Shown here piece after piece: positions 17,980-63,841 of a stretch of DNA of 64,000 nucleotides. The notes beneath the pieces were generated by a model. The model saw only the letters and a list, made by a program, of their open reading frames with translations. It was not told where the DNA came from and searched no databases. The translations under genes were made by a program, and so were the position numbers. Every line of letters begins with the position of its first letter. The first letter of the stretch is position 1. This DNA is from Halovivax gelatinilyticus (GTDB lineage Archaea; Halobacteriota; Halobacteria; Halobacteriales; Natrialbaceae), in the NCBI RefSeq assembly GCF_024300625.1, contig NZ_CP101322.1, forward strand, positions 261,992-325,991. Direction: 5' to 3'.

Positions 17980-18324
17980 ATGACCGAACGACCCTCCCAG
18001 TCGATACCGGAAAGTCGCGCGTACGCGCTGCTCTCCCACCGGCGCCACCGCCTGATCGTCAGGGTCCTCAACGACTTCGACCGTCCGCTCTCGACCATGG
18101 AACTGGCGGAACTGATCGCTGATTGTGAATACGAGAACCCCTGGGATCAGGATCGGGAAAACGCGTTCTCGGCGCTCTCGCACGATCACCTCCCGAGACT
18201 CGACGAGGCCGAGGTGGTCACGTACGACCGGCGACGAGGGACGGTTCGACCGGGGCCCGCCTTCGGCACGCTCGTCGGGATCCTCGAGGCGCGTTGTGCG
18301 GAATTTGGACCGCTGGCCGGGTGA
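17980..18324 (+). CDS. DUF7344-like winged-helix protein
   Basis: Protein of 114 aa with the haloarchaeal pattern ALLSHRRHRLIVRVLNDF, then MELAELIAD and a HDHLPRLDEAEVVTYD wing. This matches the family of small putative DNA-binding proteins commonly annotated as DUF7344. Targets are unknown. The start at 17980 has an AT-rich element (CAATATC) about 30 nt upstream. It converges on the MaoC gene with only 11 bp between the stops. Confidence 0.82.
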   Translation: MTERPSQSIPESRAYALLSHRRHRLIVRVLNDFDRPLSTMELAELIADCEYENPWDQDRENAFSALSHDHLPRLDEAEVVTYDRRRGTVRPGPAFGTLVGILEARCAEFGPLAG

Positions 18325-21904: not shown

Positions 21905-21985
21905 ACACCATGATATATAAGACAAGTGGGTAAATTAAACGAAGATAATTAAGCGATTACTCATATCACTTAATATCATGTAAAT
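21905..21985 (+). promoter_or_regulatory. AT-rich promoter region of the first pilin-like gene
   Basis: An AT-rich island of about 80 bp in a GC-rich genome. It contains GATATATAAG (21912-21921) and, closer to the gene, TTAATATCA (21970-21978). The second is 21-29 nt ahead of the ATG at 21999 and so fits a leaderless start there. The octamer AATATCAT also occurs in the promoters of the next two pilin-like genes. Confidence 0.5.
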
Positions 21986-21998
21986 CGTTCTCGACACC

Positions 21999-23513
21999 AT
22001 GACTCTCCGGGACAGGCTGTGTCGACCACCAATGACCGAAGCCTCCCGGTCGCAGGCGGAAGTACTCGGCGTCGTCATGTTGCTCGGCCTCGTTTCAATC
22101 TCCGCGCTGGGATTGTTGCTCGTCGGCGGCAGCGTCGTCTCGGATACGCAAGCGTCCGCCGAAAAAGAGCGGATCGAACAATCGTTCGTCCAGTTGAGTC
22201 ACGCCATGTCCTCGGCGACGGTGGACGGAGAGCGGATTCAAGAACTCGAGTTCGACGTCGGTGACTCGGGGGCGATCACGAAGACGGACGCCGGGAACAT
22301 CTCGATCGAGTGGGGGGACGAACAACACGTGTTCGAGACGATCGGGGCGATCGAGTACGAACACGAAGACGGCAGCGTCGTCGCCTACCAGGCGGGCGGG
22401 GTCTGGGCGGAACGCGGGAACGAGACGCGAATGCTCTCTTCGCCACCGGTACATTACGATGCTCGCACTGAAACGCTGACGCTTCCGATCGCGACGGTGA
22501 CCGAACAACGTGACCTCTCTTCCGGGCCCGTGTCGATCGACCGAGCGACGACCGATCCGGTCCCCCAGGCGAACATCGTCGAAGACGAAACGGTCGAGAT
22601 GACGATCCAGAGTCCGTACTACCGCGGCTGGGAGTCCTACTTCGAGACGCAGGGCGGAGAGGGCGTCATACGTGACGTCGATCACGACAACCAATCCGTC
22701 ACGGTTCAATTCGGCCCGCTAACGTTCGAGGACGCGCTGGATCACGGCGCGACCTACACGAGTGCCCCGGGTGGAAGTCACACCGACCAGATCGAAGAAA
22801 ACGGACAGTACGGACACTTGCGCCCGATGGACGACGTCATCGACGATCTGGTCGACGATGCCAACGACGGCTCACTCGAAATCGACCGACAATACGGAAC
22901 CCTCGACCAGACCCACAACGCCACCTTCACGAACGGGACCTACCTCGCCGACGCGATGTACGGCGGATCTCACGAAGTCGACCTCTCCGACGGGAACGTG
23001 ACGATCATCGTCGACGGCTCGATTTCGTCGGCGGGCGTCACCGATTTCATCACCGTCACCGACTACGAGGACGGAAACGAGTTGAAGATCTATTCGACGG
23101 GCCACCTGGACATCCAGAACGGCGGAAACATCTGCGTCGAACCATGTGAAGAAGACGTCGACGCGTCGCTGATACAAATATACGGCACCTCCGAGATGTC
23201 GGTCAGCATCAATCAGGGAAGTCCGCGGTACGAAGGCGTGATTTACGCCGCGAGCGATCAGGATTCGTGGGAGTACGAGGATCGGCTCGGACGCTGTGAC
23301 TCCGATCAGTACCAGTTCGCATTCCAGGCGAACGCCAGCTTCACCGGCTCGATCATCGGCTCAACCATCTGCGGCCAGAGCGCCGCGTTCGACTTCTCAC
23401 ACCACGAGTCGCTCGAAGACGCGTCGATCGACCCGTATCCGGAGGGCTACGCGCCGCCGCCGCACATCACGTACCTCAACGTGGCCGTGTTCGGCCTGGA
23501 CGTGACCAACTGA
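21999..23513 (+). CDS. Pilin-like secreted surface protein (504 aa)
   Basis: Predicted cell-surface protein with an archaeal type IV pilin-like N-terminus: a short basic segment, RSQAEVLGVVMLLGLV and a span to about residue 45. The remaining 450 residues are extracellular, acidic, with many N-glycosylation sequons (for example NHT-like NATF, NGTY, NVTI). Late in the protein is a beta-solenoid-like part (ISSAGVTDFITV, LDIQNGGNICVEP) and several Cys. The motif YYRGWESYFE resembles haloarchaeal DUF7289-type proteins. Start is uncertain: 21999 (chosen, TATA spacing) or ATG 22032, which begins TEASRSQAEV. First of three similar genes. Confidence 0.8.
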   Translation: MTLRDRLCRPPMTEASRSQAEVLGVVMLLGLVSISALGLLLVGGSVVSDTQASAEKERIEQSFVQLSHAMSSATVDGERIQELEFDVGDSGAITKTDAGNISIEWGDEQHVFETIGAIEYEHEDGSVVAYQAGGVWAERGNETRMLSSPPVHYDARTETLTLPIATVTEQRDLSSGPVSIDRATTDPVPQANIVEDETVEMTIQSPYYRGWESYFETQGGEGVIRDVDHDNQSVTVQFGPLTFEDALDHGATYTSAPGGSHTDQIEENGQYGHLRPMDDVIDDLVDDANDGSLEIDRQYGTLDQTHNATFTNGTYLADAMYGGSHEVDLSDGNVTIIVDGSISSAGVTDFITVTDYEDGNELKIYSTGHLDIQNGGNICVEPCEEDVDASLIQIYGTSEMSVSINQGSPRYEGVIYAASDQDSWEYEDRLGRCDSDQYQFAFQANASFTGSIIGSTICGQSAAFDFSHHESLEDASIDPYPEGYAPPPHITYLNVAVFGLDVTN

Positions 23514-23872
23514 CCTGACGAGAAGATACGCTTGGACGCGATGTAGCCACCAGTGGCCCGAACGATGATTCGTGCGGCCGATACTGATTCGACTCTTCGA
23601 TCTTCTCCCCGATTGGCCAGTTCACTCGTCATCACACCGGTTTCCCGCTCTATCGGTGAAATGAGTGGTCGGTGCTGCGGACGAAAGGTACACACTAACG
23701 GAACCCCACAGACCTGGTTATTTTGGCCAAATTCCACTTACAATCCGACTTTCCAGCATTGAGGAGCAAAACTCTCGAAGAAACCAAAGTCATTAGGTCA
23801 AGTATACTAGTAAATTAATTCCTAATATAGAACAATATCATTATATGATGTGCGGTCGTTGTGTGAACGCGT
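23514..23872. other. 359-bp intergenic region between pilin-like genes
   Basis: No coding sequence is supported. The last 80 bp (about 23780-23850) become strongly AT-rich and form the promoter of the next gene. A possible transcription end for the preceding gene is not obvious. Confidence 0.5.
23833..23848 (+). promoter_or_regulatory. Leaderless promoter, second pilin-like gene
   Basis: CAATATCATTATA (23833-23845) contains the TATA element TTATATGA, 25-32 nt before the ATG at 23873. The same 13 bases occur at the same distance before the third pilin-like gene. Confidence 0.7.
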
Positions 23873-26311
23873 ATGAGGGGGGATCGAGGAACAGGAACGG
23901 AGCCAGACGGATCGAACGAGACGTACGAACGAAGCGTGACACCGATCGTCGGAATCGTCCTCTTATTTGGGATGGTGTTTATCGGAGCGGCGATTCTCGC
24001 CGTTACCGGTCTCGCGCTCATGGACTCGCTCGAATCGGACTCCGAGCGAGAGACCCTCCAGACGTGCCTGCAGGAGACCGACCACCGAATTTCGACGGTC
24101 CTCACCTACAGCACTGTCGACGAACTCCCCTGTGAGGGTGGAGAGTTCGTCCCCGACGGACAGCTCTATCTCGTCTGGCACGACGATTCCGGAACCGCCA
24201 CCGATCTGACCGAAGACTACCCTACGGTAAACGCGACGCTCGGCGCGATCGAATACGCCGGAGCCGACCACACCTACGCCTACCAGGCCGGCGGTAGCTG
24301 GAAACTAAACGGCGATGACGCCCGCGTCCTCTCGAAACCCGCCTTCGAGTACCACGACGAGTTGCTCATCAACGTCGTCACCATCACCGAAGACGCCCTC
24401 TCCGATACCCCCCAGCGACTGAATCGCGAACCGGACAGCGACGTGGCCAAACAGATTCGATCCGCCCACGATGAAGCCGTTTCGAACGGCTACGGCAACC
24501 TCTCGCTCGTCATCGAGAGCGACTACCACGACGCGTGGGAGCGCCACCTCACCTCCGCGATGACGAACGATTCAGTGTCGATCGACACCACCCCCGATCA
24601 GTTCCCAATCGACGAAGACCGCGCCGTTCGAGTCGACATCACGGACGTCATCGAACCAGAACCCGCCCAGTTCGAGATCGTCGAAGACAAGGGATTCAGC
24701 GGACCTTCCGCGGTGGACGGGAAAGACAACGTGATCGTCGCGAATCCGTCTGAAGGCCCAACGGGGCCAGGAAGCCTCTGGCTGAACGCGTCCGTCGAGG
24801 TCAAAAACGTCGGAGACGTCGAAGGGACCGAAGAGATAACGTTCGAGGTCGACGGTGAAGAGATCGATTCGAAGACCGAAACGCTCGACGGCGGCGAATC
24901 GACGATAGTACACTTCGACGAGAATTTCGGCCAGCAACAGGCAACTCTCGCCCTCGAATACGGTGAGGTGTACGAGTACTGGTTCGAAACTGAGTCAGAC
25001 GACCTAAATCCCCGGGGTAGTTTCTATTACGCGAAAACCGAAGGCCCACACCTGATTCCTGGAAATGCGAATGCGCATCTAGACGAGAGTTCCGAGAACG
25101 TCACGGTCACCGCTGACATCCACAACGTCGGAGCGACGAATGCGACCGACGAATCGGTCGAACTCTCACTGTGGCAGACCGAATCGGGTGAATCAGATCC
25201 ATACAATCTCGGTAATGAGAATCCGTTCATCCTCGAAAACCGGGCATTCGGTGAGAAGAAATCCGCAACGTGGACTATCGATGCGTCGAATCTGATCAGG
25301 GGTGAGCACGCGTTCGAAATCGAGGTTATCGGCGAAAACGGATCCAATACCGTCGCCACCGGTGACTTCAACAGTACGATCGGCTGTACCGACGACGATG
25401 ACGATAGTGACAATCTGTGTATTGAAAGTAATACGGAGGTCGATGTCTCGGTCGTTGGCACCGAAATGAGTACGTCTGGAAGTACTGTCCATTGGGTCCC
25501 GGCGTTTGCGACGATCTACACGCAGCCACTTGATGGAGAAAGTGAACCGGAGCCAGTTGACGCCCCGTGGCACGGCGAGAATCTGAACCAGTTCAGCGAC
25601 AGATTGGCCATATACAATCACAGCTTCACTGTAGATGAACGGATCAGTTTGATGGTCAAAGGAGAATCGTACCTCCATTGTCACAGTTGGAGTGAAGGCC
25701 AGTCTGACGGTGAAAGACTTCACCGGTCGTGCGATACAAACCAGGTGGATAGATCAGACTCATCATCATTAGTAGAGTTAACCGCAGACAGAGATGTAGT
25801 CGAAACAAACGTTAGAGTCTTGAGTGAGAAAAATAACCTCCTACCGAATCTCGATCCTGGCCTGGACTTCCAACTGGATCCACAAACGCTACTAGAGCGT
25901 GAAGAGGTTGGCATTGAAGTCACGGATGCAGATCCGTCTGATCCAGATAACGACAGCGCACTACTCGGGCTCGATGAGAATGAATACCTGTTCGTCTTCG
26001 AGTTAACCCATCACCCAACCCAACACAATACTGGTCCGTATATACACAATGCCGAATACTTAACGGCAGACGAGTACTGGGATCTGGCGGTCGGTGACGA
26101 GTACGACGTGGATCCGAATTTCAACGACATGCTAGTTCACGTGGAAATAAATAGCGAATCCGAAGCAGATTACGGATACAGCGGTACATTCGTTGACGAG
26201 GGAGGCGAACCAATTGACGTGAGCCCTGGCAGTTCCGATGGCGTGGGCGACGGAAACGGTAACGGCGGCGTCGACATCGGCGTCGGCTCCGACGAGCTGA
26301 TAATCGGATAA
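23873..26311 (+). CDS. Large pilin-like surface protein (812 aa), paralogue of the next gene
   Basis: Predicted surface protein. After 20 polar residues, RSVTPIVGIVLLFGMVFIGA begins a hydrophobic pilin-like segment, with a likely prepilin-peptidase site next to the Arg. A conserved coiled helix follows (MDSLESDSERE). The extracellular part has a motif DYHDAWERHL, CARDB-like beta-sandwich stretches (VEVKNVGDVEGTEEITFEVDG and ADIHNVGATNATDES, given as landmarks), many sequons and a Gly/Asn-rich C-terminus. It shares N-terminus, DYHDAW and DPNFND with the following gene, so the two arose by duplication. Its C-terminal third (from about 25.2 kb) is more AT-rich than the rest. Confidence 0.85.
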   Translation: MRGDRGTGTEPDGSNETYERSVTPIVGIVLLFGMVFIGAAILAVTGLALMDSLESDSERETLQTCLQETDHRISTVLTYSTVDELPCEGGEFVPDGQLYLVWHDDSGTATDLTEDYPTVNATLGAIEYAGADHTYAYQAGGSWKLNGDDARVLSKPAFEYHDELLINVVTITEDALSDTPQRLNREPDSDVAKQIRSAHDEAVSNGYGNLSLVIESDYHDAWERHLTSAMTNDSVSIDTTPDQFPIDEDRAVRVDITDVIEPEPAQFEIVEDKGFSGPSAVDGKDNVIVANPSEGPTGPGSLWLNASVEVKNVGDVEGTEEITFEVDGEEIDSKTETLDGGESTIVHFDENFGQQQATLALEYGEVYEYWFETESDDLNPRGSFYYAKTEGPHLIPGNANAHLDESSENVTVTADIHNVGATNATDESVELSLWQTESGESDPYNLGNENPFILENRAFGEKKSATWTIDASNLIRGEHAFEIEVIGENGSNTVATGDFNSTIGCTDDDDDSDNLCIESNTEVDVSVVGTEMSTSGSTVHWVPAFATIYTQPLDGESEPEPVDAPWHGENLNQFSDRLAIYNHSFTVDERISLMVKGESYLHCHSWSEGQSDGERLHRSCDTNQVDRSDSSSLVELTADRDVVETNVRVLSEKNNLLPNLDPGLDFQLDPQTLLEREEVGIEVTDADPSDPDNDSALLGLDENEYLFVFELTHHPTQHNTGPYIHNAEYLTADEYWDLAVGDEYDVDPNFNDMLVHVEINSESEADYGYSGTFVDEGGEPIDVSPGSSDGVGDGNGNGGVDIGVGSDELIIG

Positions 26312-26570
26312 CGGCCGAACCAGTTCTCACGGTTGGTACGCACAATTGTAGACGTACTCTCACCCAGGTGGCCACGGCCAGCAGCGGGTTAAATCACGAT
26401 AGAATCGGGTTCTCACGCAGTAGCCGACTGTACCGGCAGCATTCATCGAAACACTTCGGACCACTAGTCCGATTTATCAAAATTTCCCCTTACTCAAATA
26501 CATTATCTAAAATATAGTAAGAAACTTCGCAATATCATTATAGATTGGAAGAACAAAGCGTTCAAAGAAC
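26312..26570. promoter_or_regulatory. Intergenic region with promoter of the third pilin-like gene
   Basis: The last 100 bp are AT-rich. CAATATCATTATA recurs at 26530-26542, placing a TATA element 27-33 nt ahead of the ATG at 26571. The match to the copy upstream of the second gene (23833-23845) is exact over 13 bases, so the two genes probably share a regulator or simply a duplicated promoter. Confidence 0.65.
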
Positions 26571-29054
26571 ATGGGGGACGAAGGGGTAAACGAAGAAAGA
26601 TCCATCCCAATACAAAGCGGGGGACACGACAGGAGTGTGGCACCTGTCGTCGGGATAATTCTACTGTTTGGAATGGTCTTCATCGGGGCGGCACTGGTGG
26701 CCGGGGCAGGAATGATGTTGATGGATTCGGTCGAATCCGAATCGGAAGCCGAACAGGCGCTTTCGTGTCTGGATCGAACTGACCACAACGTCCAAACGCT
26801 GCTTCGAGCGAACACCCAGGAAGAAATTCCCTGCGAGTCGGGGGTACGCGATCACGGATCGGTCACGCTCACGCTGAGTAACGACGATGGCGAAGACGAA
26901 ACCGTCACGATCGATCCGCTCGGATCGTTCGAGTACGAACTCGACGATCGGCGCCTCGGCTACCAGAGCGGGGGCGTCTTTCAACTAAGCGACGGGACGA
27001 CGAGAATTCACACGCCACCGGACGTCGGCTTCGGCGAGGGCCCAGAGACCCCGCTCGCAGAGCAAACGATGAGTCTTAACTTCCTTTCGTTCACGTCCGT
27101 TGAGCAGCACGGATCGGTGACGGCGATGAATCACAACCAATCGGCGACGACGGCGAAATCAGATGAAATCGAACGGGCGTTAGCGGGCGGATACGAACAT
27201 CTGGAGATCGAAATCGAAAGTGACTACCACGACGCGTGGGCCACCCACCTCGAAAGTGCGTTCTACGCGGATACGTACGACAACGTCTCCGTCGACCACG
27301 ACGAGTCGGCCGAGACGGTTACACTCTCGATCGAGCACTTCGCCGAACCGGACGCCTTCTTCCAGGTTACCGATGTCGAACCGGCCGACTGGATGGTTGT
27401 GTATCGAGGCAACCAAACGTTCGAATTGGATGCCGAAGTAACGAACACCGGCCACGTGACCGGGAGCGACGATCTCACACTCGAAATCCCGGCGGCGGAC
27501 GCAGACGACCGCGAGTTCGAAATCGACGAACTGGAACCGGGCGAATCGGTTACGAAAACGTTCGACGTCGAGTCGTTCGACATACCAACCGAAGGGCCTG
27601 GAAATCAACCCAACGACATCAACCGGTACGGTGCGTACGACTACACCGTCTCGACGAGCGATAGCGACGCTAGCGGCTCGTTCTATCTAACCTTCCCGGA
27701 TAACGCATTTTATCGGATCGACGACCTCTCGATGACCGACGAGGGGCCGATCACGACCGCTGGACTAAACGTGACGAACATCGGGGAACTCACTGCACCG
27801 GTGGAAACAACGATGACACTCCAAAGTAACGATGATTCGCTTCCCGACCCCATTGCCGAGTGGGACGAAACTGTCGAACTCGATCCCTGGGACGAAACGA
27901 CGATCGAGTACGATTTCAACCGGAGCGTCCTCCCCGACGCGAACTACACGTACACGATCGAGATCGATAACGATGGCCTTGGCACATCGATGTGTAATCT
28001 TCACGAGTCGGCCTGCGTGCGAGAGGGCTCGTTCGAAATCGAAGACGGGGCAATCGGTGGGCCAGGAGAGGTGATCATCACCGAGCCGTCTAACGTGAGC
28101 GTCAGTATTATCGGGACGGAGATATCAGCGGAGGGTTATGACCAAGATCAGGGTTCGTGGGTCAAATATTGGTCTCCAGTCACGGCCTCCGCCGTTGTCG
28201 GTGATACACGTTATCGGTTCCTTCCAGACGGGTCAATCGAAGAAATCGCGTACGAGGACCCTCACGAAACCGAGATCGGTGAACAAATGGAGGATTTTAA
28301 TCTGAACACCTTCGGTACCCAAGAGCACATCTACAGCTTAGAGGAAGAGATAGAGGAAGGATCGGTAACAATCGAAGCGACCTATTGGGAATGTTATTCT
28401 AGTTGGTTAAGAACAGGATGGGAGTATGCTGGGACGGACGAATGGCAAGAAAGAGAGTACAACCACTTCAATTGTGAAGAATTCGGTGAACCGATTACCG
28501 TCGACGTCGCCAGCGGGGAGATTGATGCCGATGCTGGGTTCGTTATGACGCGAGACGCCGACCGGAACGAGTTGCCAGACATTGAGGAGGGGTACGACCG
28601 TCAACGAAACATCCAGGAGGTGTTCGAAGACGGCACCGACGATATCGAGTTGATCGACGGTGAACTAACCCTCGGACAAAACGACTTTGCGTTCATGATG
28701 GAAGTCACAATGGATCACGAAGGACTTGTCTCCACCTACGGGGAGGATTATGACGGTGAGTACAATCTCGATACGGACAACCAGACCGAAAGCAACCTGG
28801 CCGCCTGGGACATCGCTGAGAATTACCGCAACGACGAACTGTATGGTACCGGTGACCCCAACTTTAACGACGTCATCGGGTTCGTCCAGGTCGACGGTGG
28901 CGGGCAGTACATCGATCTCGATCCGGACGCGATCCTCGACGACTATCGACTCGAAGGGGTGAGCGGCGCGCCATCGATCGAATACTCCGACGACGAGTAC
29001 GACACTGGCGGACCGACCGTCGAAGCAGGAACCGGTGTCATCGAGATCTCCTAA
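26571..29054 (+). CDS. Large pilin-like surface protein (827 aa), paralogue of the preceding gene
   Basis: Same architecture as the 812-aa neighbour: polar leader of about 22 residues, SVAPVVGIILLFGMVFIGAA, then MDSVESESEAE, a shared Cys followed by DRTDHN, DYHDAWATHL and a late DPNFND motif. The middle holds beta-sandwich repeats with CARDB-like spacing (AEVTNTGHVTGSDDLTLEI, LNVTNIGELTAPVETTM). Extracellular acidic residues and sequons are frequent. Near residues 600-660 a Cys/Trp-rich stretch (YWECYSSWLRTGWEYAG) differs from the paralogue. Function could be adhesion, pilus capping or surface assembly; none is shown by the sequence. Confidence 0.85.
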   Translation: MGDEGVNEERSIPIQSGGHDRSVAPVVGIILLFGMVFIGAALVAGAGMMLMDSVESESEAEQALSCLDRTDHNVQTLLRANTQEEIPCESGVRDHGSVTLTLSNDDGEDETVTIDPLGSFEYELDDRRLGYQSGGVFQLSDGTTRIHTPPDVGFGEGPETPLAEQTMSLNFLSFTSVEQHGSVTAMNHNQSATTAKSDEIERALAGGYEHLEIEIESDYHDAWATHLESAFYADTYDNVSVDHDESAETVTLSIEHFAEPDAFFQVTDVEPADWMVVYRGNQTFELDAEVTNTGHVTGSDDLTLEIPAADADDREFEIDELEPGESVTKTFDVESFDIPTEGPGNQPNDINRYGAYDYTVSTSDSDASGSFYLTFPDNAFYRIDDLSMTDEGPITTAGLNVTNIGELTAPVETTMTLQSNDDSLPDPIAEWDETVELDPWDETTIEYDFNRSVLPDANYTYTIEIDNDGLGTSMCNLHESACVREGSFEIEDGAIGGPGEVIITEPSNVSVSIIGTEISAEGYDQDQGSWVKYWSPVTASAVVGDTRYRFLPDGSIEEIAYEDPHETEIGEQMEDFNLNTFGTQEHIYSLEEEIEEGSVTIEATYWECYSSWLRTGWEYAGTDEWQEREYNHFNCEEFGEPITVDVASGEIDADAGFVMTRDADRNELPDIEEGYDRQRNIQEVFEDGTDDIELIDGELTLGQNDFAFMMEVTMDHEGLVSTYGEDYDGEYNLDTDNQTESNLAAWDIAENYRNDELYGTGDPNFNDVIGFVQVDGGGQYIDLDPDAILDDYRLEGVSGAPSIEYSDDEYDTGGPTVEAGTGVIEIS

Positions 29055-61759: not shown

Positions 61760-62467
61760 TTAGACAAAGAGCGAGAGGGCGAGCGCCACGCCGAGACCGC
61801 AGACGGGCCAGTCTCGGGGCCGAAAGCGAAGCGGTGGAAGCGTCGGGTTCCACGACAGACACCGAGCCTGCAAGGCGACGGAGAGTCGGTCGGCCCGGCT
61901 GAACGCTCGCGAGAGGCCGACGGCACCGACTCGCGCCGCCCGATCGCGCGCTGGCCGTTCGGATCCGAGTCGGGCGGCCATCGCTGCCTGAACGGTCCGT
62001 AAATCGGCTTGCAGAACGGGCAAGAACCTGAACACGAGCGACACGCCGAGTCCGAGGAAGCGTCCGGGTGCGCCGGGAACGATTCGCTGAAACGCCGCCT
62101 GTGAATCGCGAACGGGCGTCGAGCGGACGTAAGCTGCGCTAACGAGGAGGATCAATCCCACCCGGTAGCCCGCACTCGCCGTGGTGAGTCCGTCGTCGAC
62201 GTCGATCCAGGGGGAGCCGAGCGTAACCGCAGAGACGACGACCCCGATACTGAGAAAGCCGAAGATGTACCGGTAGGCGACCAGTGTTCGGCCGATCGAG
62301 ATCCCGGCGAACGCGAGAGTGGCGAGTGCGAGAACCGTGAGTCCGACGTGTGCGACGAACGATGTGTGGCCGATCGCGGCGACGGCAAATCCCACCTGAA
62401 CGCAGAGCTTCGATCGCGGGTCGAGGCGGTGTGCGAACGTTTCGTCGGGTTCGTAGGTGAGCATCAT
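61760..62467 (-). CDS. bioN: ECF transporter transmembrane component (BioN type)
   Basis: Membrane T-component of an energy-coupling-factor importer, 235 aa with about five spans. The cytoplasmic coupling helices AAMAARLGSERPARD and ADRLSVALQARCLSW correspond to the two EcfT motifs. Its ATG overlaps the bioM stop (ATGA), so translation is coupled. With bioY and bioM it forms a complete biotin importer set, hence BioN. Confidence 0.88.
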   Translation of the reverse strand: MMLTYEPDETFAHRLDPRSKLCVQVGFAVAAIGHTSFVAHVGLTVLALATLAFAGISIGRTLVAYRYIFGFLSIGVVVSAVTLGSPWIDVDDGLTTASAGYRVGLILLVSAAYVRSTPVRDSQAAFQRIVPGAPGRFLGLGVSLVFRFLPVLQADLRTVQAAMAARLGSERPARDRAARVGAVGLSRAFSRADRLSVALQARCLSWNPTLPPLRFRPRDWPVCGLGVALALSLFV

Positions 62468-63177
62468 CTCTCCGATCCGGTTCGAACGCCGATCTCGCTC
62501 GCGGCGAGTTCGGCCATCGCCCGGTCGGGTTCGTCGTCGATAGCGACGTGTCCGTCGGCCATGGCGATGACGCGATCGGCGAGGTCGATCACCTCGGCCG
62601 GGTCGTGCGTCGAGACGATCACGCCGGTACCAGACGCCGAGAGCGACGCGAGTTGCTCGCGAACCGAGCGGCGGGCGGGATCGTCCAGCCCGGAGAAGGG
62701 TTCGTCGAGGACGAGGTGAGACGGCGCCATCGCGAGCGCGCCGGCGATCGCCACCCGCGACTGCTCGCCACCGGAGAGTTCGTCGATTCGTTCGTCACCC
62801 CGTCCGTTCATGTTCACGGCTTCTAGAGCGCGTTCGACGCGATCGTCGATGACGTCACGTTCGAGTCCCAGGTTCTCCGGGCCGAACGCGACGTCGGCCG
62901 CGACGGTCGCGGCGACGAACTGGTCGCGTGGGTGTTGAAAGACCATGCCGACGGCCGAGCGGGCCGCGACGAGATCGGCGGCGACCGGCGTTCCGTCGAC
63001 TCGAACGCGTCCGTCGGCGGGTTCGAGTAGCCCATTGGTGTGGCGCAATAGCGTCGTCTTTCCGCTTCCGTTCGGGCCGACGAGAACGACGAATTCGCCG
63101 TCATCGATGGTGAGCGATACGGAGTGGAGGATATTCGCCCCGCCGTATGCGAACGAGACGTCGTCGAATTCGATCAT
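62464..63177 (-). CDS. bioM: ECF transporter ATPase (BioM type)
   Basis: ABC ATPase of 237 aa. Walker A GPNGSGKTTLL is near residue 33, Q-loop MVFQHPRDQF, signature ELSGGEQSRVAIAGAL, Walker B LVLDEPFSGLD. It is the single ATPase in the operon, so it probably works as a homodimer. It starts 7 nt after bioY and overlaps bioN. Confidence 0.92.
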   Translation of the reverse strand: MIEFDDVSFAYGGANILHSVSLTIDDGEFVVLVGPNGSGKTTLLRHTNGLLEPADGRVRVDGTPVAADLVAARSAVGMVFQHPRDQFVAATVAADVAFGPENLGLERDVIDDRVERALEAVNMNGRGDERIDELSGGEQSRVAIAGALAMAPSHLVLDEPFSGLDDPARRSVREQLASLSASGTGVIVSTHDPAEVIDLADRVIAMADGHVAIDDEPDRAMAELAASEIGVRTGSER

Positions 63178-63184
63178 CGGACAG

Positions 63185-63841
63185 TCAGGTTGGATCGACG
63201 ATCTCGCTTCGCACGACGGCGACGGCGGCGACCATTTTTATCAGTTCACCGATGAGAAACGGGGCGACGTAGAGGGCGAGGGCCTCGGTGGGCGAGAGGG
63301 CGAGTAGCCACATCCCGTACGTCGCTCCCATCGCGTAGATGATGACGGTCGCGATCACGAGCGCGACGACGAGACGGACGGTCCCGACCTCCGCCGGGTT
63401 ACGGACCTGAGATCGTTCGAAGAAGCCCGGGCGGTCGATCCCCGTCGCTTCCGGATCGATCCCACGGCGTCCGATCCCAGCCCGACCGTGAACGATCGCA
63501 CCGATAACGAACGCGGCGATGGGATACGACCAGAGGAAGCCGGCCGTATCTCCGACGAGCGCACCGAATCCGGCGCTTCCACCGGCGAAAACCGGTGCAC
63601 CCGCGGCGCCCGCTGCCAGGTACAGCGCCATCGCCGTCGGCCCCCAGATCGGTCCCAGATAGAGCCCGGCCAGGAAGACGAAGAGAACCTGTAAGGTAAG
63701 CGGTGCCGGTGAGATCGGTATCGGAATCGAAAACAGCGCGGTCGCCCCGGTCAACGCAGCCAGCAGCGCCGCCCTCGCGAACGGCTTGACGACCGCGCCG
63801 GGGACCAGCGAGACGGATCGGCGCTCGTAATCGGTAGACAT
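63185..63841 (-). CDS. bioY: Biotin transporter substrate-binding component BioY
   Basis: S-component of the biotin ECF importer, 218 aa with about six spans. The family hallmarks are present: IPISPAPLTLQVLFVFLAGL and LGPIWGPTAMALYLAAGAAG, then GAPVFAGGSAGFGALVGDTAG. A hydrophilic insertion (about residues 120-155) lies in one loop. It heads the bioYMN operon, directly behind an operator of the BirA type. Biotin specificity is well supported by the family match and by that operator. Confidence 0.93.
   Translation of the reverse strand: MSTDYERRSVSLVPGAVVKPFARAALLAALTGATALFSIPIPISPAPLTLQVLFVFLAGLYLGPIWGPTAMALYLAAGAAGAPVFAGGSAGFGALVGDTAGFLWSYPIAAFVIGAIVHGRAGIGRRGIDPEATGIDRPGFFERSQVRNPAEVGTVRLVVALVIATVIIYAMGATYGMWLLALSPTEALALYVAPFLIGELIKMVAAVAVVRSEIVDPT

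Follow-up and report, generated by a model that had tools for sequence, protein, structure and literature searches.

Three large DUF7289 proteins at a conserved haloarchaeal locus are probably modular minor pilins with exchangeable adhesive modules

The window analysed here is a 64,000-nt stretch of the Halovivax gelatinilyticus genome (NZ_CP101322.1, positions 261,992 to 325,991). It contains three consecutive large open reading frames on the + strand, as are all features given below unless stated otherwise. They had been singled out in a first-pass annotation as large pilin-like surface proteins, and were recovered at the same positions: P1 (21999..23513, 504 aa), P2 (23873..26311, 812 aa) and P3 (26571..29054, 827 aa). 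P1 combines a DUF7289 pilin module with a DUF7305 beta-solenoid module. P2 consists of a DUF7289 pilin module, two Ig/CARDB-like domains, a C-terminal beta domain with a DPNFND motif and a flexible tail ending in DELIIG, and P3 follows the same plan.

The pilin-type N-terminus attributed to each protein was borne out. Archaeal type IV prepilins are recognized by G, A or S at position –1, a charged residue at –2 and a hydrophobic segment behind the site (PMC4371748); applied as a simple rule, this selected 4 of the 67 genes in the window, namely P1, P2, P3 and one polytopic membrane protein. The computed class III sites are RS^QA (after residue 18) in P1, RS^VT (after residue 21) in P2 and RS^VA (after residue 22) in P3, each with a charged residue at –2, serine at –1 and an uncharged H-domain behind, in keeping with an archaeal type IV prepilin; serine at –1 is likewise found in H. 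volcanii PilA2 (PMC4371748). All three sites are archaeal in type, and no match to the IPR012902 motif was present among the Pfam hits of the three proteins. Each protein has a single membrane-like segment, at the N-terminus, and no second one. A comparable site was found, under a slightly wider rule, in 20 of 20 proteins of set A1 and in 17 of set A5. The fourth gene selected in the window (63185-63841, – strand) encodes a polytopic, hydrophobic protein and is probably a false positive.

All three proteins exceed the curated Pfam cut-off of 27 bits for DUF7289 (PF23960): residues 17-238 of P1 (22047..22712; E = 1.7e-23, 83.8 bits), 20-254 of P2 (23930..24634; E = 4e-17, 63.0 bits) and 21-255 of P3 (26631..27335; E = 1.1e-20, 74.6 bits). 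This pilin part spans ~240 aa, with the distal modules beyond it. P2 and P3 are paralogues, as had been proposed, with 27% identity over the full alignment, 38% in the N-terminal domain, and DYHDAW and DPNFND in both. P1 had been set apart from this pair, but since all three carry DUF7289, its N-terminal module is homologous to theirs as well. In the Pfam search, Pilin_N (PF07790) reached 21.0 bits in P2 and 17.5 bits in P3, below its cut-off of 25.2, and was not listed for P1. With hits up to E = 1 counted, a profile of the N-terminal domain retrieved five PDB sequences; each is a subunit of a type IV filament and each match is marginal (E = 0.005-0.77), the best being Natrinema PilA2 (E = 0.005). 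In the P2 model, a helix of low confidence (residues 28-71, pLDDT about 43-56) precedes strands forming a mixed sheet, while no useful model was obtained for the P1 pilin module. No pilin appeared among the Foldseek rows for the whole P2 model or among the VIA-align rows, which barely cover the N-terminal part. Some large DUF7289 open frames in other genomes (L081-L083) start 300-470 residues ahead of the DUF7289 domain, so that either their start codons are uncertain or an additional N-terminal region is present.

The distal part of P1 is a DUF7305 domain (residues 266-474, 22794..23420; PF23981, E = 8.7e-30, 104.4 bits, cut-off 27), predicted to be a right-handed beta-solenoid. Only the solenoid was usable in the P1 model, which was built from two sequences (residues 275-405, mostly pLDDT 57-87), and its best structural rows were ice-binding beta-helix proteins (Z 8.0-9.2); a PDB profile search with P1 returned nothing significant. 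P1-type proteins also have a conserved TYLNVA segment at their C-terminal end.

Beyond the mixed sheet, the P2 model, which is based on nine sequences and has a mean pLDDT of 68, shows two Ig-like sandwiches and then another beta domain. The first sandwich (residues 265-387, 24665..25033) aligns in VIA-align with the CARDB domain of P. furiosus PF1109 (3idu_B; Z 10.0, rmsd 2.5, 98 residues), and the second, Ig/FnIII-like sandwich (residues 393-502, 25049..25378) matches many Ig/FnIII rows (Z 10-10.6, rmsd about 2.5), with a weak CARDB match at residues 400-438. By structure match, P2 carries one feature of modular pilins, an extra domain that is not specific to pilus biology. The C-terminal beta domain (residues 515-760, 25415..26152), delimited from the model and from invariant columns, contains a conserved Cys pair (603/620) and DPNFND; three cysteine pairs are similarly placed in P2 and P3. 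Foldseek with the whole P2 model gave generic tandem-Ig matches alone, at low TM-scores, and a PDB profile search with P2/P3 gave weak matches to GH3 enzymes across the Ig-like domains. No vWA or lectin domain was found by Pfam in P1-P3, and a fold shared with known structures is no evidence of function. DUF4114 was considered for the DPNFND domain and rejected, its best score being 16.4 bits (E = 0.044, in a P2 relative; cut-off 27), with no match in the H. gelatinilyticus genome. The P2 tail (residues 762-812) is predicted to be disordered (pLDDT about 31), yet its strand-like DELIIG end is conserved family-wide (alignment A3), with Ile 811 invariant.

An exact 13-mer, CAATATCATTATA, lies upstream of both P2 (23833..23845, 27 nt from the ATG) and P3 (26530..26542, 28 nt from the ATG), and an 8-mer only, AATATCAT, precedes P1 (21972..21979), as the first-pass annotation described. 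The exact 13-mer has two copies in the 3.70 Mb genome, both at P2/P3, and four when up to one mismatch is allowed, versus none for the reversed control. The P2/P3 upstream pair beats 500 of 500 shuffles and ties for the top of 2,145 upstream pairs in the window (two pairs have that score); the identity is beyond chance and may have arisen by local copying. The analysis did not support reading the shared promoter as the mark of a special regulon. In haloarchaea, the TATA element of leaderless genes is located at about this position, and judging from its position the 13-mer is probably such a core promoter element; it is not specific to pilins, because a copy precedes an unrelated gene and the orthologues lack it. 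This copy, a third occurrence of the 12-nt core AATATCATTATA (G000:C1:942476-942488; L018, L108) with a mismatch at the first base of the 13-mer, lies 27 nt ahead of the ATG of a gene for an unrelated secreted protein with a twin-arginine-type signal. The 13-mer is absent from the orthologous promoters inspected and from the upstream sequences inspected for PilA-type genes (whose start codons are uncertain), and on the same observations a pilin-specific operator was rejected. In a sister genome (G004; L052 9538 and 12250), two neighbouring large DUF7289 genes share another 25-nt upstream element (21/25 identical), and promoter sharing between neighbouring DUF7289 genes thus recurs there with a different sequence.

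Synteny in other Halobacteria, which had been proposed as a check, revealed a conserved cluster: the slot is kept in four sister genomes between a TrkA-N-like gene and adk/cox. It holds P1 and three large genes in G004; P1, a DUF7305-vWA protein and a P2 relative in G002; P1 and two vWA proteins in G003; and P1 and two DUF7305-vWA proteins in G001. In three of the sister genomes, a vWA domain at this slot passes its Pfam cut-off, as does one in G021. It is the C-terminal module of these proteins that varies and can be exchanged, with vWA taking its place in sister species. In other members of the family, such as Halobiforma haloterrestris, Natrarchaeobius chitinivorans, Halopiger djelfimassiliensis and Natrinema species, one to three of these genes lie beside adk, or one large gene lies elsewhere. 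The number of genes at the loci of relatives ranges from one to four, and relatives reach about 1,500 aa. Gene calls in these genomes came from a simple script favouring acidic open reading frames, by which some genes were missed.

More widely, DUF7289 is present in 94 of 97 sampled haloarchaeal genomes, a survey in which open-frame lengths run from stop to stop and are not taken as protein lengths. A control search found it in Haloferax volcanii. Five haloarchaeal plasmids have N-terminal matches only (23-26% identity), and no P1 relative was found in the viral contigs searched. In several Natrialbaceae (L057, L058, L061-L064, L070, L072, L073, L075), a single large DUF7289 gene lies near a ~604-aa gene related to window positions 62464-63177, often with a short gene related to 17980-18324 nearby.

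No motor or assembly gene lies near P1-P3, and the three genes are neither within nor beside a PilB4-TadC operon, so that their link to a motor is through homology only. In the H. gelatinilyticus genome, five DUF7289 genes score over the cut-off: P1, P2, P3, a gene for a second DUF7289-DUF7305 protein (about 495 aa) and one short gene. The short gene, which is the best DUF7289 match in the genome, belongs to a PilB/TadC operon together with genes for a T2SSE ATPase (1,205 aa), T2SSF, DUF7287, DUF7288, DUF7261 and DUF7266. The halobacterial PilB4 ATPase is described as carrying additional domains at its termini and having a pilin set of its own (Makarova et al., PMC4858521), and we infer that this T2SSE/T2SSF operon is of the PilB4 type. 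The 2016 census also proposed a minor pilin, arCOG02911, which is 250-550 aa long, prone to duplication and common to both clade 2 systems (PMC4858521). DUF7289 probably corresponds to this arCOG, going by our own mapping between the two.

Taken together, the sequences, their genomic context and the analogies discussed below suggest, with a probability of roughly two in three, that P1-P3 are modular minor pilins of a haloarchaeal type IV pilus with exchangeable adhesive modules, probably located at the pilus tip and assembled in trans by a PilB/TadC motor. P1-P3 would be made as prepilins with a class III signal, and the single prepilin peptidase of the cell (one Peptidase_A24 gene is present) would cut ahead of the hydrophobic helix. 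Held in the membrane by the N-terminal helix, the cut proteins would then await insertion of this helix into a filament by a PilB/TadC motor encoded elsewhere, most likely that of the PilB4-type operon that includes the gene of the short DUF7289 minor pilin. Outside the cell, the beta-solenoid of P1 and the Ig-like stalk and C-terminal beta domain of P2/P3 would most likely be displayed at the tip, because these large parts are too bulky for repeated packing in a shaft. There they may bind surfaces, cells or glycans. Tip position and adhesion are probable by analogy with Streptococcus sanguinis PilB/PilC, CpaL and KilLMN.

As the motor, PilB4 is favoured over PilB3. Besides the operon in the genome itself, a large DUF7289 gene adjoins, or lies within a few genes of, a PilB4-type operon at 10 of 10 loci from other haloarchaeal families; these loci were selected for short and large DUF7289 matches close together, so the count establishes that the arrangement exists in several families and says nothing of its frequency. 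The large genes at these loci look mostly P1-type rather than P2/P3-type, and DUF7305 was present in the four that were scanned. Another PilB4-linked large DUF7289 protein has 1,295 aa (L099). Across genomes, the co-occurrence of DUF7289 and PilB4 is weak (Fisher p = 0.004 over 97 related genomes, ignoring kinship and with the PilB4 bit-score line set after the scores were known), and PilB4 occurs without DUF7289 in G109. It is conceivable, though less likely, that P1-P3 are instead minor pilins of a PilB3/PilA-type adhesion pilus or of another PilB system. The genome offers candidates: it has four T2SSE genes, and four PilA-type genes score above the cut-off for Pilin_N; arCOG02911 is not confined to one clade 2 system, and motors are able to share pilin sets (Makarova et al., PMC4858521). 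DUF7289 genes are also found next to other PilB-like genes, and because two genomes (G065, G072) have DUF7289 and no strong PilB4 match, DUF7289 pilins appear to serve other PilB systems too. Against this stand the position of the genome's best DUF7289 match in the PilB4-type operon and the recurrence of the linkage in other families.

A tip position in a filament also has to be weighed against the possibility that P1-P3, cut by PibD or not, stay in the membrane as anchored single subunits, with the helix serving as an anchor and the domains acting in the S-layer or in binding at the cell surface, in a manner that partly recalls the S. solfataricus bindosome. Their large size and the lack of a motor at the locus would fit such a role, and large archaeal class III proteins other than classical pilins are known, the bindosome proteins being large non-pilins that adopted the class III signal (PMC4371748). 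However, the homology of P1-P3 to a short protein from a pilus operon extends over the N-terminal 240 aa, well beyond the signal, and large homologues are tied to the PilB4-type operon in other families, which makes an anchor role improbable.

The first-pass annotation had envisaged a surface fibre or adhesin system, of which the adhesin or surface-fibre role remains the best reading; a separate, dedicated fibre built of P1, P2 and P3 is very improbable, even though three or four large DUF7289 genes are kept together across the genus, because no motor is encoded at the locus, a homopolymer shaft is unlikely given the bulk of the extracellular parts, and several relatives (L053, L055, L071, L074) have one large gene only at this locus. 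It is more likely that the three proteins join an existing PilB/TadC pilus as minor or tip subunits. A more specific version of this assignment is tentative, and we would give it less than even odds: the trio may be an archaeal counterpart of exchangeable tip complexes, in which one solenoid type and one or more Ig/vWA types form a single filament-priming tip that presents a lineage-specific adhesive module. The adk-side locus might then act as a cassette by which tip modules are swapped between related species, with motor and shaft unchanged.

The system had been called not clearly described. This is only partly so, since DUF7289 is a Pfam family and probably equals the arCOG02911 minor pilin (PMC4858521), whereas proteins of 800-1,500 aa whose C-terminal modules are exchangeable do not appear in that text. 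Large archaeal class III proteins (PMC4371748), minor pilins of arCOG02911 (PMC4858521) and bacterial modular pilins (PMC8179133) are already known. In a literature search covering few subscription journals, no paper naming DUF7289 was found, arCOG02911 appeared only in the 2016 census, and neither DUF7289 proteins of 800-1,500 aa bearing Ig, solenoid or vWA modules nor the exchange of such modules at one locus were found described. The archaeal pilins characterized so far are small and say little about how archaeal pili recognize surfaces and partners. If the large DUF7289 proteins are tip adhesins, tractable hosts such as Haloferax volcanii would allow haloarchaeal recognition modules to be removed, exchanged and assayed.

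Compared with known systems, P1-P3 resemble the arCOG02911 minor pilins, described as FlaFind-positive pilin-like proteins that occur in PilB4-type loci, are prone to duplication and vary in length (PMC4858521), but those have ~250-550 aa, while P2 and P3 have 812 and 827 aa, some relatives extend to about 1,500 aa, and solenoid, Ig-like or vWA modules are added at the C-terminus. Thermus thermophilus ComZ (6qvi) is a pilin with a large beta-solenoid module, as predicted for P1, although its structural match to P1 is weak (Z 5.8, rmsd 6.3, 172 residues) and ice-binding beta-helix proteins are closer (Z up to 9.2). In Myxococcus xanthus, the KilLMN proteins are likewise large minor pilins from neighbouring genes; their terminal modules differ, and one genome holds paralogous sets of them (PMC12075869); a heterotrimer is predicted there, whereas many DUF7289 relatives have one or two genes and not three. 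Caulobacter crescentus CpaL joins a minor pilin-like module to a vWA domain and is placed by modelling at the tip of a Tad pilus with a TadA/TadC-type motor, but it is a single bacterial gene and a proposed mechanosensor (PMC12607857). In S. sanguinis PilB/PilC (PMC8179133, Raynaud 2021), an adhesive module is grafted onto a pilin module, and a vWA domain, as in PilB, is also found in the sister-species proteins at the locus described here; the N-terminal motif and the machinery are bacterial, and P1-P3 themselves have neither vWA nor lectin domain in Pfam. If the reading of P1-P3 as modular minor pilins is correct, archaea and bacteria would have reached one grafted-module pilin design, the vWA module included.
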